Assembly (NCBI GenBank): GCA_018883125.1
Contig: VEQR01000022.1
Coordinates: 1 to 34,647, forward strand
Direction: 5' to 3'
Source: Candidatus Kapaibacterium sp.
GTDB lineage: Bacteria; Bacteroidota; Ignavibacteria; Kapaibacteriales; Kapaibacteriaceae
Length of the DNA stretch: 34,647 nucleotides
A program made the translations under genes and the position numbers. How positions within the stretch are numbered: the first letter of the stretch is position 1; every line of letters starts with the position of its first letter. The notes beneath the pieces are model-generated. The model was not told the DNA's origin. It saw only the letters and a list, made by a program, of their open reading frames with translations, and did no database searches. Below, piece after piece: positions 7,374-21,543 of this stretch.

Positions 7374-8870
7374 GTGACGCCACAGGACGCCCCGTCCGGC
7401 TCGGTCTCCGCGCGCGTTATCTCTGCCAGCATCTGGGTGTTCGGCTCCCAGATCCTGTCTTTGGTCCTTGTGTTCGTTGCGCAGCGCCTTGTTCTCTCAT
7501 CGCTCGACCCCGAGAGCAACGGTACACTGTTTCTTGAGCGGCGACTAACGGAAGTGATCGTGGGTCTTTTGGCCGACTTCGGCATGAATGGCATCGTGGT
7601 CCGACGTGTTGCTCAAGAGCCCGCCCGCGCAGCCGAGATCCTCTCGTCGGCATTCTACGTGCGCCTTGGTCTGTGGTCCGTCTGCACGCTTGCCGTGGCC
7701 GTTGCCGGCTTGGCTAGTTCGCTGCACATGACCGATGTGATCCTTTGGTGCGTGTATATGCTCATCGCTTCGCGGGCAGCCCTACTGCGCTACACCCTGG
7801 AAACGCGTCTTCGGGCAGCGTCGGATTTCCGCCTGCCGTCGGTCCTCGCCGTTCTGGATGCCGCGATCTTTGCTGCCCTTATCAGCATGTGGCGCAGCGC
7901 TTTGACGCCAACTGTTGTGATTCAGGCCTTCGTGCTGAGCGCAATTCCGGGTTTCCTGATTCTGCTGTTCGTCGATAGGGGGCGCTCCACATCATGGTCA
8001 ACAGCATCGCGCGGTGAGATGACGTCGATCGTCCGCGAGGCGTTGCCCGTTGTTTCGGCAACTCTGCTGATTGCCGTACACGACAAGATCGATGCCTTCA
8101 TCGTTGAGTCATTTGCCGGGCGCGCGCACGTTGGTATTCTCGGTGCAGCATACACAACGCTTGGACCGCTCCTTGCCGTCATCCCAATGGCCGTGTCCTA
8201 TGCGGCTATGCCGGATGTTGCCCGACTCTTACCAACCGATGAGGCAAGGGGGCTGGACGTTGCCATGGGGGTGATGAAGCACCTGCTGGTGATCAGTCTG
8301 CTGGTGACATCTGTTGCGACGGTTGTAATGCCGTTGTTTGTGGATGTGGTGACAAAGGGACGCTACCTCGACTCGGTACATCAGTTTGTGTGGTTTGTCT
8401 GGTCAGCCCCTTTCGTGGCCATTCTCGTCTATGCACAGGAGCTCAGCGTTGCCGTCAAGCGTCAGGCAAACCTTGTCCGCATAGCTGTGGCACTTGTTCT
8501 GAGCACTGTTGGCTTCGGACTGCTTCTGATTCCAAGCATGCAATCACTTGGTGCCGTTATTGCCAAGATCATTACATCAGTTGCCGGAGCTGCGGTAAGT
8601 CTCTGGCTGCTTCATGCAACGCTTGGCAAGCGTATGTCTGTGACGCTTGTGCTTCGCCTAATGGTACTGGTCGGTCTATGCGCCGGTGTCTCTTTGTGGT
8701 TGATCGATGCTGATGGTGTTGCCGTTCTTTCAACCTTTCAGGGTATCGCTGGTCTTGTAGGTCGTATGGTACTTGCCGTACTTGCCGTGCTAACCTTTGC
8801 AGCACTCCTTGGCGTTCTAGGTCGCGACGATCTGCGTCGGCTTAGGCATGGACTTGTGGGAGCACGATGA
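7374..8870 (+). CDS. Polysaccharide flippase, Wzx/MATE-like
   Basis: This 498-aa protein is almost entirely hydrophobic, with about 12-14 predicted membrane helices. The N-terminal region (SASIWVFGSQILSLVLVFVAQRLV) resembles Wzx/oligosaccharide flippases, which move lipid-linked repeat units across the inner membrane. It starts at GTG 7374, 12 nt after the export gene. Its end overlaps the next gene by ATGA (8867-8870), so it sits inside the assembly operon. No short catalytic motif defines the family; the call rests on the hydropathy pattern, length and context. A Wzy-like polymerase is less likely because I see no large periplasmic loop. Confidence 0.78.
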   Translation: MTPQDAPSGSVSARVISASIWVFGSQILSLVLVFVAQRLVLSSLDPESNGTLFLERRLTEVIVGLLADFGMNGIVVRRVAQEPARAAEILSSAFYVRLGLWSVCTLAVAVAGLASSLHMTDVILWCVYMLIASRAALLRYTLETRLRAASDFRLPSVLAVLDAAIFAALISMWRSALTPTVVIQAFVLSAIPGFLILLFVDRGRSTSWSTASRGEMTSIVREALPVVSATLLIAVHDKIDAFIVESFAGRAHVGILGAAYTTLGPLLAVIPMAVSYAAMPDVARLLPTDEARGLDVAMGVMKHLLVISLLVTSVATVVMPLFVDVVTKGRYLDSVHQFVWFVWSAPFVAILVYAQELSVAVKRQANLVRIAVALVLSTVGFGLLLIPSMQSLGAVIAKIITSVAGAAVSLWLLHATLGKRMSVTLVLRLMVLVGLCAGVSLWLIDADGVAVLSTFQGIAGLVGRMVLAVLAVLTFAALLGVLGRDDLRRLRHGLVGAR

Positions 8871-18583: not shown

Positions 18584-18604
18584 GGGCGAGACGCGGTCTC
18601 GCCC
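18584..18604 (+). repeat. Palindrome directly after aspA (9-bp stem, 3-nt loop)
   Basis: GGGCGAGAC (18584-18592) and GTCTCGCCC (18596-18604) form a perfect stem around GCG. It starts 6 nt after the aspA stop. There is no T-run, so it is not a standard intrinsic terminator, but it could block 3' exonucleases. Confidence 0.6.
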
Positions 18605-18634
18605 GCACATATCCCGCACATATCCCGCACATAT
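18602..18634 (+). repeat. Three perfect tandem copies of CCCGCACATAT
   Basis: The 11-bp unit occurs at 18602-18612, 18613-18623 and 18624-18634 with no spacer. The first copy shares its CCC with the right arm of the preceding palindrome. A slippage-prone microsatellite or the remains of a repeated palindromic element would fit. Confidence 0.85.
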
Positions 18635-18654
18635 CGGGGATGACGGCCACGCGT

Positions 18655-18769: not shown

Positions 18770-18790
18770 CAGTAATTCAGTAATTCAGTA
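18770..18790 (+). repeat. 2.6 tandem copies of CAGTAATT spanning a stop codon
   Basis: Units lie at 18770-18777 and 18778-18785, with a partial CAGTA at 18786-18790. On the minus strand the array encodes the last residues (LNY) and the TGA of the alpha/beta hydrolase, so unit gain or loss could alter its C-terminus. Confidence 0.75.
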
Positions 18791-19742
18791 CCTCCCTCAC
18801 CGTTTCTTCCACCACGCGTGCAACGGCCTTTGATTCCGGTGCGTAGCCGATCTCGTGGGCATCGGCGTCGAGGGGGAGGAAGCGTTTGCGAGTTGAGGCG
18901 AGTTGGTCGTGCATCGTGCGAATGGCATCAACGCTGACGATGGAGTCCTGCGTGGCTTCATCGCGGTACCAGCACATGGTGAGCACGGGCTGCTTGATAG
19001 CCGCGAATGTTTCTTGCGTCATGGAGGTTTCGAGTAGTTCCTGCAGCTGAGAAATGCCTTCGATGCGGTACTTCATGTACCAGTACTTGGCGCGCTCGGG
19101 GTTCTGCATCTTGGTGGCGCGGTAGTCGCCCCCTACCACGAGGCGGGTGAGGGCCAGACCCCACGGGTTGTTGGCGAGGAAGCTCAGGGGGTGACGCAGG
19201 CGGATGTTGGGTGACCAGTTGACGACCGAGTGCACGTCGCTTGGGAAGCGGGAGGCAAGCAACAGGCCGAGCGTACACCCGGTGGAGGTGCCCACGATTA
19301 CCACCTTGCGTCCGAGTCGTTTGCCCACCGCAAGGGCCCGCACCGCGTCGGCATAGACCGAGTCGGGTGAATAGTCGATAAGGGGCTCTGCAGTATTCAG
19401 GCCATGACCATGAAGTCGGGCAAGGTAGAGGTTTGCGCCAGTGCGTCGGGCAACCTCTTCGATGGCAGGGGAGCCATCGTGCCATGTGCCGGAGAAGCCA
19501 TGTAGGTACACAATGGCGATATCGGTGATGGAGCGTGTTGTATCTGCCCAGATGATCCGCGCTTCAACGTCGGGCTTGAGCGGAAGCGATCTTTCGTGCT
19601 GATCGATCATGCGTTCGAGGTCGGCCGGCGCTTTTGGCAACGAAGGGAGTGCCGTGGAGTATGTCGGCCGGGAAGGACTTGGTCCTAGCAGGTAGGCTAC
19701 GACCAACACCAACGGTGCGGCCAGCAGGATGCGTGATTTCAT
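18777..19742 (-). CDS. Alpha/beta hydrolase, membrane-anchored or exported
   Basis: This 321-aa protein opens with a short basic segment and a hydrophobic stretch (ILLAAPLVLVVAYLLG), which is a signal anchor or signal peptide. The fold shows the oxyanion segment VYLHGFSGTW near residue 80, the nucleophile elbow GTSTG with Ser153, a likely acid at Asp261 or Asp266, and His296 in DADAHEIG. Substrate is unknown; the closest general class is the serine hydrolases of the lysophospholipase/carboxylesterase type. The start codon sits 4 nt downstream of a TAGTTTCG box. It is followed by the repeat patch and converges with aspA. Confidence 0.85.
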   Translation of the reverse strand: MKSRILLAAPLVLVVAYLLGPSPSRPTYSTALPSLPKAPADLERMIDQHERSLPLKPDVEARIIWADTTRSITDIAIVYLHGFSGTWHDGSPAIEEVARRTGANLYLARLHGHGLNTAEPLIDYSPDSVYADAVRALAVGKRLGRKVVIVGTSTGCTLGLLLASRFPSDVHSVVNWSPNIRLRHPLSFLANNPWGLALTRLVVGGDYRATKMQNPERAKYWYMKYRIEGISQLQELLETSMTQETFAAIKQPVLTMCWYRDEATQDSIVSVDAIRTMHDQLASTRKRFLPLDADAHEIGYAPESKAVARVVEETVREVLNY

Positions 19743-19780: not shown

Positions 19781-20755
19781 CTATTGACCTGCCTTTTGCG
19801 TCCGATCAAGCAGGCGCATGGCGAGCGAACCAATAACTACGACCACAGCACTCAACACGAGGTGCTCAAGCGTCGGCTTCAGAACCCAGAGCGCACCAAT
19901 AAGCTGTAGCACGATGATTGTCACCAGCAGATTGGCAATCGCCATGCGATTCCATTTCGAGATCACGAAGGCCCCAAGGGGCGCGAAAATCAATACCACC
20001 GGGGCAGCTGCCAGCCAGGCGTGATACACATTCTCGGACACATCGCGCACCACGAGCGCATGCAATGCAAAACCGCAGACGGTGAGGATGCTCATCAGGA
20101 CAACCGACGTTGGAGTTGCAACCTTTTCGTCGATACCATACCAAAGGGTAAGCACGCAGAATGTTACAAGATCTACCCCATTGCCAAAGATTGCCGTCAC
20201 CACACCACCAACCATTCCAGCGCCAAGGAGTGTCAAGATGTCATTGCGAGACAGCACATCGTCCAGTCCTGGTCTTACAATCCGTGCCTTGTTGCGATTG
20301 GCAAGAAACAGGCCTATTCCAAAGGCCATCCACAGAGAGACAAAGAAGAGCTTGGTCTGGATGGGTTCAAGGAACGGGACTACGAACCATGTCCCGAAGA
20401 GAAGTCCAGCAACACCCCCCAAGGCCGGCCACAAAACCGCACGTGTTTCGATTGGAATTCCCCGGCCGAGGATGAGCAGCGAGGCCGATACCATGCCGAT
20501 GCTCTGAATAGCAAAAGAGAATGAGCGGGCATCGATGGGGGCGATCTTGAGGATCAGTGTGAAGACTGGGAAGGCGATAGCCCCGCCCCCTTCAGCACTG
20601 GCACCTGCAATAAAGGATCCAAACACCATCGTCACTGCAGCAGGCCACCAAGCAAGGACTTTGTCAAGAATACCTGCAGATGTGATATAGGCAACGAAGC
20701 TCGAGACAACGCAAATGGCAAACGGGAGATAGTACCGAAGTGGACGCATGTTCAT
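19781..20755 (-). CDS. Sulfite exporter TauE/SafE (TSUP) family permease
   Basis: This 324-aa integral membrane protein has about eight to ten helices. GSFIAGASAEGGGAIAFPVF near the first helices and GAGMVGGVVTAIFGNGVD in the second half are the internally repeated glycine-rich segments of the TSUP family, which exports sulfite, sulfonates or related anions. The start MNMRPLRYYLP at 20755 is chosen over the upstream open frame (to 20839) because that extension is a polar, shadow-like sequence overlapping the upstream gene. Only 7 nt separate it from the coiled-coil gene, so it is the third gene of a tight minus-strand unit. The transported anion is not determinable here. Confidence 0.85.
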   Translation of the reverse strand: MNMRPLRYYLPFAICVVSSFVAYITSAGILDKVLAWWPAAVTMVFGSFIAGASAEGGGAIAFPVFTLILKIAPIDARSFSFAIQSIGMVSASLLILGRGIPIETRAVLWPALGGVAGLLFGTWFVVPFLEPIQTKLFFVSLWMAFGIGLFLANRNKARIVRPGLDDVLSRNDILTLLGAGMVGGVVTAIFGNGVDLVTFCVLTLWYGIDEKVATPTSVVLMSILTVCGFALHALVVRDVSENVYHAWLAAAPVVLIFAPLGAFVISKWNRMAIANLLVTIIVLQLIGALWVLKPTLEHLVLSAVVVVIGSLAMRLLDRTQKAGQ

Positions 20756-20762
20756 GATGTTC

Positions 20763-21053
20763 TCACTCGTTTCCGCTGAGCATTTTGAGGTAGGAGATGA
20801 TCGTGTTCTGGTTCTCGACGATTGTGTTCTGATTTCCAACGATTGTCTGCTGGTTGCCGATCACTTTCGTCATCGTCTCCACAAGCGTTGAGTGCGCTTC
20901 GGTCACAAAGCGCTGATTCTCCGACAGGATAGTCTGCGACTGAATCAGCTTCTGCTCATTAGTCGTTGCGGCCCGACGTGTTTCGGCGAGCGAATTCGTC
21001 ACCTCGGTGAGCATTGTGATGATGCGGGCAATGTCGGCTTCAATGGCGGCCAT
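20763..21053 (-). CDS. 96-residue continuous coiled-coil protein with Asn at core d positions
   Basis: No family is recognised with confidence. Residues 8-92 fit an unbroken heptad register with a = I8, L15, L22, A29, L36, L43, V50, L57, V64, I71, I78, I85, L92. The d positions are I11, V18, T25, N32, S39, N46, A53, T60, N67, N74, N81 and Y88. The last part is a visible 7-residue repeat (VGNQNTI-type) with three consecutive Asn d layers. No signal peptide or membrane helix is present. It overlaps the end of the HTH gene by 14 nt and ends 7 nt before the TSUP permease gene, which implies coupled translation. A role as an oligomeric scaffold or partner is inference only. Confidence 0.75.
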   Translation of the reverse strand: MAAIEADIARIITMLTEVTNSLAETRRAATTNEQKLIQSQTILSENQRFVTEAHSTLVETMTKVIGNQQTIVGNQNTIVENQNTIISYLKMLSGNE

Positions 21054-21543
21054 GGCGTAGTCGGATCTGTGAGCGGATACGGGAGATGTCAGCCCCCTTC
21101 AGGAGGTCTCGAAGTTCAAGATGCACAACCTTCGGCACAGGATGGGTTTCGGATTCAATGCGGCGCATCAGACGTCCGACATGTTGCAAAGAGAAGCGGG
21201 GCCCAAAGAGTCGCTCGATCATCTCGGCCAGCAGCTGACGTGTCCACACGTCGCTGTCGATGCGATGGTCCCTCGGAGAGCTGCTCATGAGCGCGCGCAG
21301 CATAAGCAGGTGTCGGTCTGTCAGTGATCTCGGTGCCCCAGTCTTTGGACGTGCCTGCAGACCTTCCGCCCCTTTCAGCTTTGCCGATTTTATCCACTGA
21401 CTCACGGCTGCTGCCGAAACATCCAGTGCCGCGGCGATATCAACAGACCGCCAACCGCTGTTGTGCAGTTCCCAGGCGCGCAGACGTCGGCGTTCGAGCA
21501 TCTGCGCCCTCACGGATCGAGGGAGGGGCGTGATGGTAGGCAT
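21040..21543 (-). CDS. IS630-type transposase N-terminal DNA-binding protein lacking the DDE domain
   Basis: From ATG 21543 this is a 167-aa protein. Residues about 15-60 form an IS630-like HTH (RRLRAWELHNSGWRSVDIAAALDVSAAAVSQWI). The winged-helix segment typical of IS630 transposases follows (RLFGPRFSLQHVGRLMRRI). The DDE catalytic domain that should come next is missing, replaced by about 35 residues of basic tail (RIRSQIRLRHGRH). It could be a domesticated regulator or a decayed element. Two points favour function: the frame is clean, and it is tightly coupled to two downstream genes. The frame is open back to 21783, but that part reads like shadow sequence. A 9-bp inverted repeat lies in the divergent region upstream. 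Confidence 0.75.
   Translation of the reverse strand: MPTITPLPRSVRAQMLERRRLRAWELHNSGWRSVDIAAALDVSAAAVSQWIKSAKLKGAEGLQARPKTGAPRSLTDRHLLMLRALMSSSPRDHRIDSDVWTRQLLAEMIERLFGPRFSLQHVGRLMRRIESETHPVPKVVHLELRDLLKGADISRIRSQIRLRHGRH

Follow-up and report, generated by a model that had tools for sequence, protein, structure and literature searches.

The window analysed here, a stretch of 34,647 nucleotides from Candidatus Kapaibacterium sp., carries on its minus strand a small gene encoding a coiled-coil protein, located between a gene encoding a helix-turn-helix (HTH) protein and a gene encoding an anion permease. The features of this locus are the following:

18777..19742, minus strand: alpha/beta hydrolase, after the permease gene; found again only in the closest relatives (L009, L010)
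19781..20755, minus strand: TSUP/TauE-type anion permease, 324 aa (PF01925, E 5e-17)
20763..21053, minus strand: coiled-coil gene, 96 aa, ATG start; the C-terminal half consists of [IV][IV]xNQxx heptads
20796..20855, minus strand: coiled-coil residues 67-86, three successive NQ heptads (Asn d67, d74, d81), defined by alignment, heptad table and tandem repeat
20910..20936, minus strand: coiled-coil residues 40-48 (QTILSENQR), second conserved block, defined by alignment
21040..21543, minus strand: HTH protein, 167 aa (Pfam HTH_32/29/33), corresponding to the N-terminal DNA-binding part of an IS630-type transposase

The product of 19781-20755 scores 62.8 bits against PF01925, well above the curated cutoff of 32.6, and 7 bp separate the coiled-coil stop codon from the start codon of the permease gene. 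Both the spacing and the Pfam match bear out the original prediction, which coupled the coiled-coil gene to a TSUP-type permease. No solved structural relative of this permease was found at E 0.01, and an inspection of six relatives by eye did not reveal sulfur-metabolism genes as a conserved neighbour of TSUP. The HTH gene, which that prediction had overlooked, lies upstream, and its frame overlaps the coiled-coil frame by 14 bp in the window and in near relatives. Compared with IS630-type transposases, the HTH protein matches the DNA-binding N-terminus only (positions 1-109 of the 299 of the NCBIfam model; 70.4 bits, below the cutoff of 100), and no catalytic domain follows the HTH region. 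Since it lacks this domain and has been vertically kept beside the coiled-coil and TSUP genes in 15 genomes, the HTH protein looks domesticated.

The alpha/beta hydrolase gene is absent beside the TSUP gene at three other loci (L117, L118 and L119); being kept in L009 and L010 only, it is probably not part of the module. Between an aspartase/fumarase-like gene and this hydrolase gene, positions 18602-18635 hold three perfect 11-bp tandem copies (CCCGCACATAT), and the ORF that spans them recurs nearly unchanged in L009 at 8404-8664. The window contains no RNA elements or tRNAs, and a promoter/terminator scan of it gave hits no more frequent than in shuffled sequence.

Heptad register, conservation and predicted fold

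As originally predicted, residues 1-96 follow one unbroken register, with a positions at 8+7k and d positions at 4+7k. The a positions from 8 to 92 read I L L A L L V L V I I I L, hence they are aliphatic (I/L/V) at 12 of 13, with A29 as the sole exception. The d positions from 4 to 88 read I I V T N S N A T N N N Y and are followed by a terminal N95. Asn had been correctly placed at d32, d46, d67, d74 and d81, including three consecutive Asn layers at 67/74/81. The aliphatic periodicity was matched by none of 200,000 shuffled sequences, and the concentration of Asn at one heptad position has a p value of 0.0014 when any register is allowed in the shuffled sequences. The heptad tables of both families discussed below combine Ile/Val at a with Asn at d of the same heptad.

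Alignment of the relatives from the window's family places the most conserved block at residues 67-86. In the C-terminal half, conservation at two further positions that had escaped notice, b (I/V) and e (Q), equals that of the core positions a and d; for instance, Gln occupies e in heptads 67, 74 and 81 of all 15 sequences of this family. Within the second block, L43, S44, E45, Q47 and R48 are invariant in 15 relatives and include surface (b, c, e, f) as well as core positions. The protein of one genome (G101) carries a heptad-sized insertion that keeps the register. Comparison with three close relatives gave dN/dS values of 0.05-0.13, with changes concentrated at third codon positions: the gene is under purifying selection at the protein level. 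Therefore, the period-21 tandem repeat of the DNA at 20799-20855, which coincides with the heptads, reflects the pattern of the protein and did not arise as a replication artefact.

No Pfam or NCBIfam model matches this coiled-coil family above cutoff. Genomes of both families usually carry one copy; since the other NQ-like matches in the window genome have stops or are weak, no second copy was accepted there. A phage or plasmid origin was rejected, as no match to the coiled coil was found in phages, plasmids or viral contigs, and the PHROGs matches were short and weak. A defence system was also rejected, PADLOC giving no match to the coiled coil and weak matches only to the HTH protein.

AlphaFold2, provided with 15 homologues, predicts for the monomer a single continuous helix covering residues 2-93 (mean pLDDT 95.4), and the monomer of a divergent relative from the second family is also predicted as a helix (residues 2-98, pLDDT 89). 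Together with the alignments, these models uphold the view of the product as a helical and conserved coiled-coil protein. Among solved structures, profile comparison ranks first the designed helical trimers made of IVENN repeats (6nx2, E 4.5e-5 and 5.7e-5), a likeness that is one of pattern and not of descent. As for oligomerisation, the sequence would be compatible with trimers, dimers, tetramers or larger bundles. The hydrophobic b positions and Gln at e, next to the a/d core, may form two adjacent seams, an arrangement that might accommodate a partner helix or favour a larger bundle. Neither a signal nor a membrane segment was seen in the 96 residues, and the protein is presumably cytoplasmic.

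Distribution of the gene cassette in two Bacteroidota families

In the window's family (23 genomes), the HTH, coiled-coil and TSUP genes occur in an identical set of 15 genomes, where the three are always adjacent, and the other 8 genomes have none of them. In G101 (L017/L029), the coiled-coil gene keeps its place between the HTH and TSUP genes but has the reverse orientation. An aldehyde-dehydrogenase-like gene (PaaN-like by eye) is recurrent near the cassette in this family (L117:2146-3816, L118:4316-5989, L119:10001-11737, L155:6830-8599 and L157:8645-10324).

Other Bacteroidota families also contain relatives of the window TSUP; those of families f29, f30 and f40 have no NQ coiled coil nearby. 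By contrast with such loci (L066-L080), where TSUP relatives stand without a coiled coil of this kind, an NQ coiled coil adjoins TSUP at 27 of 30 loci in a further family (f43), 25 of them divergent, one co-directional and one convergent. Among 150 genomes of f43, both genes are present in 29, TSUP only in three, the coiled coil only in one and neither in 117, so that 29 of the 33 carriers have the two in common (Fisher p 2e-26, a statistic that ignores kinship, the genome counts within families being phylogenetically correlated and several genomes fragmented). The three TSUP-only cases are all divergent copies, with 42-54% identity to the query. Since these copies and those at L066-L080 lack the coiled coil, TSUP does not need it. 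Taking both families together, the two genes are co-directional in the window and at L081, divergent at 25 loci and in G101, and convergent at L084. The search for this gene pair in other genomes thus showed that the coiled coil accompanies one and the same clade of TSUP in two Bacteroidota families distant from each other, which removes the objection that it might never accompany TSUP permeases outside the window.

The typical order in f43 is an XRE regulator, an inverted coiled-coil gene and TSUP (L112, L114, L115, L116 and L153). The XRE-type protein is unrelated to the HTH protein of the window and has a C-terminal coiled-coil tail. Hence, the HTH, coiled coil, TSUP gene order recurs with a non-homologous HTH partner. 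Several f43 cassettes have a DUF3179 membrane protein adjoining the XRE regulator (for instance, L112:4549-5685). At L111 and L113, no HTH gene was seen adjoining the pair. In G489, the XRE gene with its coiled-coil tail overlaps TSUP directly (L154:6033-7473) and the NQ coiled coil is found on another contig (L159:3612-4046); the XRE gene of G490 is likewise coupled directly to TSUP. Two NQ coiled-coil genes adjoin genes other than TSUP (L151 and L160). These two loci and the separate contig of G489 count against the module proposed below. The gene at L160:5664-5960, in a genome without TSUP (G595), lies beside an ABC importer that looks like the NitT/TauT type. In the same genome, another NQ coiled coil (L161:5742-6050) is near a MetE-like gene, and the intervening TSUP seems to have been lost.

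The heptads of the f43 proteins read [IV][IV]xNQxx, and the 25 aligned sequences all have Asn at each of seven successive d positions, encoded by AAT as well as by AAC. Because the profile match between the two coiled-coil families is repeat-biased, the main argument for their homology is synteny with TSUP genes that look orthologous. The coiled coil may also have been recruited convergently in the two families, which would be informative too.

Furthermore, a gene encoding a PAP2/vanadium-haloperoxidase-like lipoprotein, whose nearest solved relative is a Zobellia enzyme (4cit), lies at most 10 kb from the coiled-coil-linked TSUP in 19 of the 29 f43 genomes, belonging to four genera (positions compared by hand). 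Since 127 of the 150 f43 genomes have a member of this enzyme family, only its proximity is informative. In four genomes of the window's family (G027, G308, G101 and G303), such a gene adjoins the HTH gene. Between the two families, the enzymes share 37-47% identity; in both, a homologous outer-membrane protein is encoded next to the cassette-linked lipoproteins. The window locus has no haloperoxidase-like gene, the best match in this genome being remote and on another contig. PAP2 enzymes can be phosphatases or haloperoxidases, and the sequences of these lipoproteins would fit either activity. The KxxxxxxRP, SGH and RxxxxxH motifs are intact in the lipoproteins encoded at L112:1370-2938, L116:11460-13004, L115:9945-11564, L117:3881-5431 and L119:8367-9890. 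In G575, 11 bp separate the end of the second NQ coiled-coil gene (L151:5310-5552) from a haloperoxidase-like gene (E 5e-42 against 4cit), which is followed by three AhpD-like genes and then by another haloperoxidase-like gene.

Possible roles of the coiled coil beside the exporter

The pairing of the coiled coil with the exporter is strongly supported, because the genes are adjacent at nearly all f43 loci, most carriers have both and the adjacency persists despite the flipping of the coiled-coil gene and the replacement of the HTH gene. The coiled-coil protein is probably a dedicated partner of the TSUP exporter. We propose that it is the middle component of a three-gene module made of a DNA-binding HTH protein, the coiled coil and a TSUP anion exporter. 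It would be a soluble cytoplasmic rod whose self-assembly relies on a core formed by the a (Ile/Val) and d (Asn) residues, with a second conserved seam formed by the b (Ile/Val) and e (Gln) residues. It would act in the service of the exporter, most likely adjusting either export itself or the way in which the exporter genes are regulated. The amide-rich core may be only marginally stable alone and, more speculatively, a ligand or partner may complete it, whether this is the anion being exported, the HTH protein or a cytoplasmic face of TSUP. If so, assembly would report the state of this ligand or partner; any choice of the partner that assembly would in turn control is speculative. We give a probability of about 0.5 to this reading, i.e. 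an accessory oligomer with conditional assembly that tunes anion export or exporter regulation. The explanations considered here overlap, and the confidences attached to them are not meant to sum to one.

The coiled coil might instead be a structural rod, in which Asn at d and Gln at e only fix the oligomer state, the register and the parallel orientation, and which tethers or clusters TSUP or the HTH protein with no role for an anion. Asn-at-d layers have been described as helping to define the trimeric state and the chain register (PMC5940361), and the resemblance to the designed IVENN trimers (6nx2) agrees with such a function. However, seven successive invariant Asn layers seem excessive for register specification; this point is not decisive, and we regard the rod as a tentative alternative.

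A similar, rather low likelihood is given to a split regulator, in which the coiled coil would be the oligomerisation or sensor half of the DNA-binding HTH protein, the pair controlling the TSUP gene. The overlap of the HTH and coiled-coil frames points in this direction, as does the XRE replacement of f43, which carries its own C-terminal coiled coil and is coupled directly to TSUP in G489 and G490. However, a separate coiled-coil gene is kept even where the XRE protein has a coiled coil. Moreover, this gene is often on the strand opposite to TSUP, and it stands beside TSUP at two loci (L111 and L113) where no HTH gene was seen.

A more doubtful explanation is an anion sensor: a parallel homotrimer that would bind the anion of the exporter, a halide or a monovalent ion like it, at its Asn d layers and would fold when this anion accumulates, thereby switching TSUP or its regulator. 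Trimers with [I/V]xxNxxx heptads bind Cl- and other halides at their Asn-at-d layers and, in engineered peptides, a single layer makes trimer stability chloride-dependent (PMC12933892). In addition, the permease belongs to an anion-export family and many relatives have haloperoxidase-like neighbours. However, each extra Asn layer destabilises the naked trimer, and two already blocked trimer formation of the engineered peptides in solution (PMC12933892). Therefore, the five to eight Asn layers found here are not simply readable as a stable anion-filled trimer. The parallel trimer is a candidate state only, a halide is likewise only a putative substrate of the window TSUP, and the window locus has no haloperoxidase neighbour. 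Furthermore, Gln is found at e in place of the Thr of the autotransporter motif. True anion sensing by the coiled coil thus appears unlikely. A specific form of it would be a metastable Asn-at-d stack acting as a cytoplasmic sensor of halide (or a similar anion) that folds around the anion of TSUP, within a module that in many genomes also comprises the haloperoxidase-like lipoprotein and the outer-membrane protein; this form is, if anything, more improbable still.

Chance proximity or common descent of a hitch-hiking small ORF unlinked to TSUP would agree with the relatedness of most genomes within each family, whose counts are not independent, and is nevertheless very improbable given the low dN/dS, the all-or-none pattern and an adjacency that survives coiled-coil inversion and HTH replacement in two distant families. 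Least credible of all, a beta-roll of seven-residue repeats, evoked by the richness in I, V, T and N and by a weak Pfam match of residues 40-94 to the grass antifreeze beta roll (E 0.0012; 19.4 bits, below the curated cutoff of 30), is disposed of by the single helix that AlphaFold2 predicts in two families (pLDDT 95 and 89), the heptad periodicity also running into clearly helical flanks.

Comparison with known coiled-coil and TSUP systems

N-at-d anion layers occur in trimeric autotransporter stalks (for example SadA), in retroviral and Ebola fusion proteins and in human L1ORF1p (Hartmann et al. 2009, cited in PMC4786415 and PMC5940361). Like these trimers, the coiled coil described here has Ile/Val at a, Asn at d and several such layers. 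Unlike them, it is a free-standing small bacterial protein without signal or anchor, its family has up to 7-8 successive Asn layers with Gln at e and Ile/Val at b, and its gene neighbourhood is tied to an anion permease; it is known here from its sequence and a monomer model. With 96 residues that are all helix, it has neither the exported stalk nor the C-terminal beta-barrel anchor of a trimeric autotransporter. The stalk motif of autotransporters has Thr at e after Asn at d (IxxNTxx), whereas the coiled coil has Gln at this position. Designed IVENN trimers (6nx2, 6o0i and 5j0h) also combine Ile at a, Val at b and Asn at d, with Asn-Asn at d/e versus Asn-Gln here and no evolutionary relation. 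They use buried amide networks for specificity.

The permease of the window is a clear member of TSUP/TauE-SafE (PF01925), a family associated with the transport of sulfite, sulfonate or other anions. To our knowledge, known TSUP systems have no coiled-coil partner, and the literature searches found none; the present pairing gives a functional context to a protein family that had no annotation. Whether Asn-at-d layers can sense anions becomes a question that is directly testable with a soluble protein of 96 residues. Anion-holding layers of buried Asn have been described in viral and adhesin stalks and in designed peptides, and the ion is there as a rule regarded as a structural element. The present proteins are free-standing, with as many as seven or eight invariant Asn layers in a row, and offer a natural case in which this core may be the functional part.
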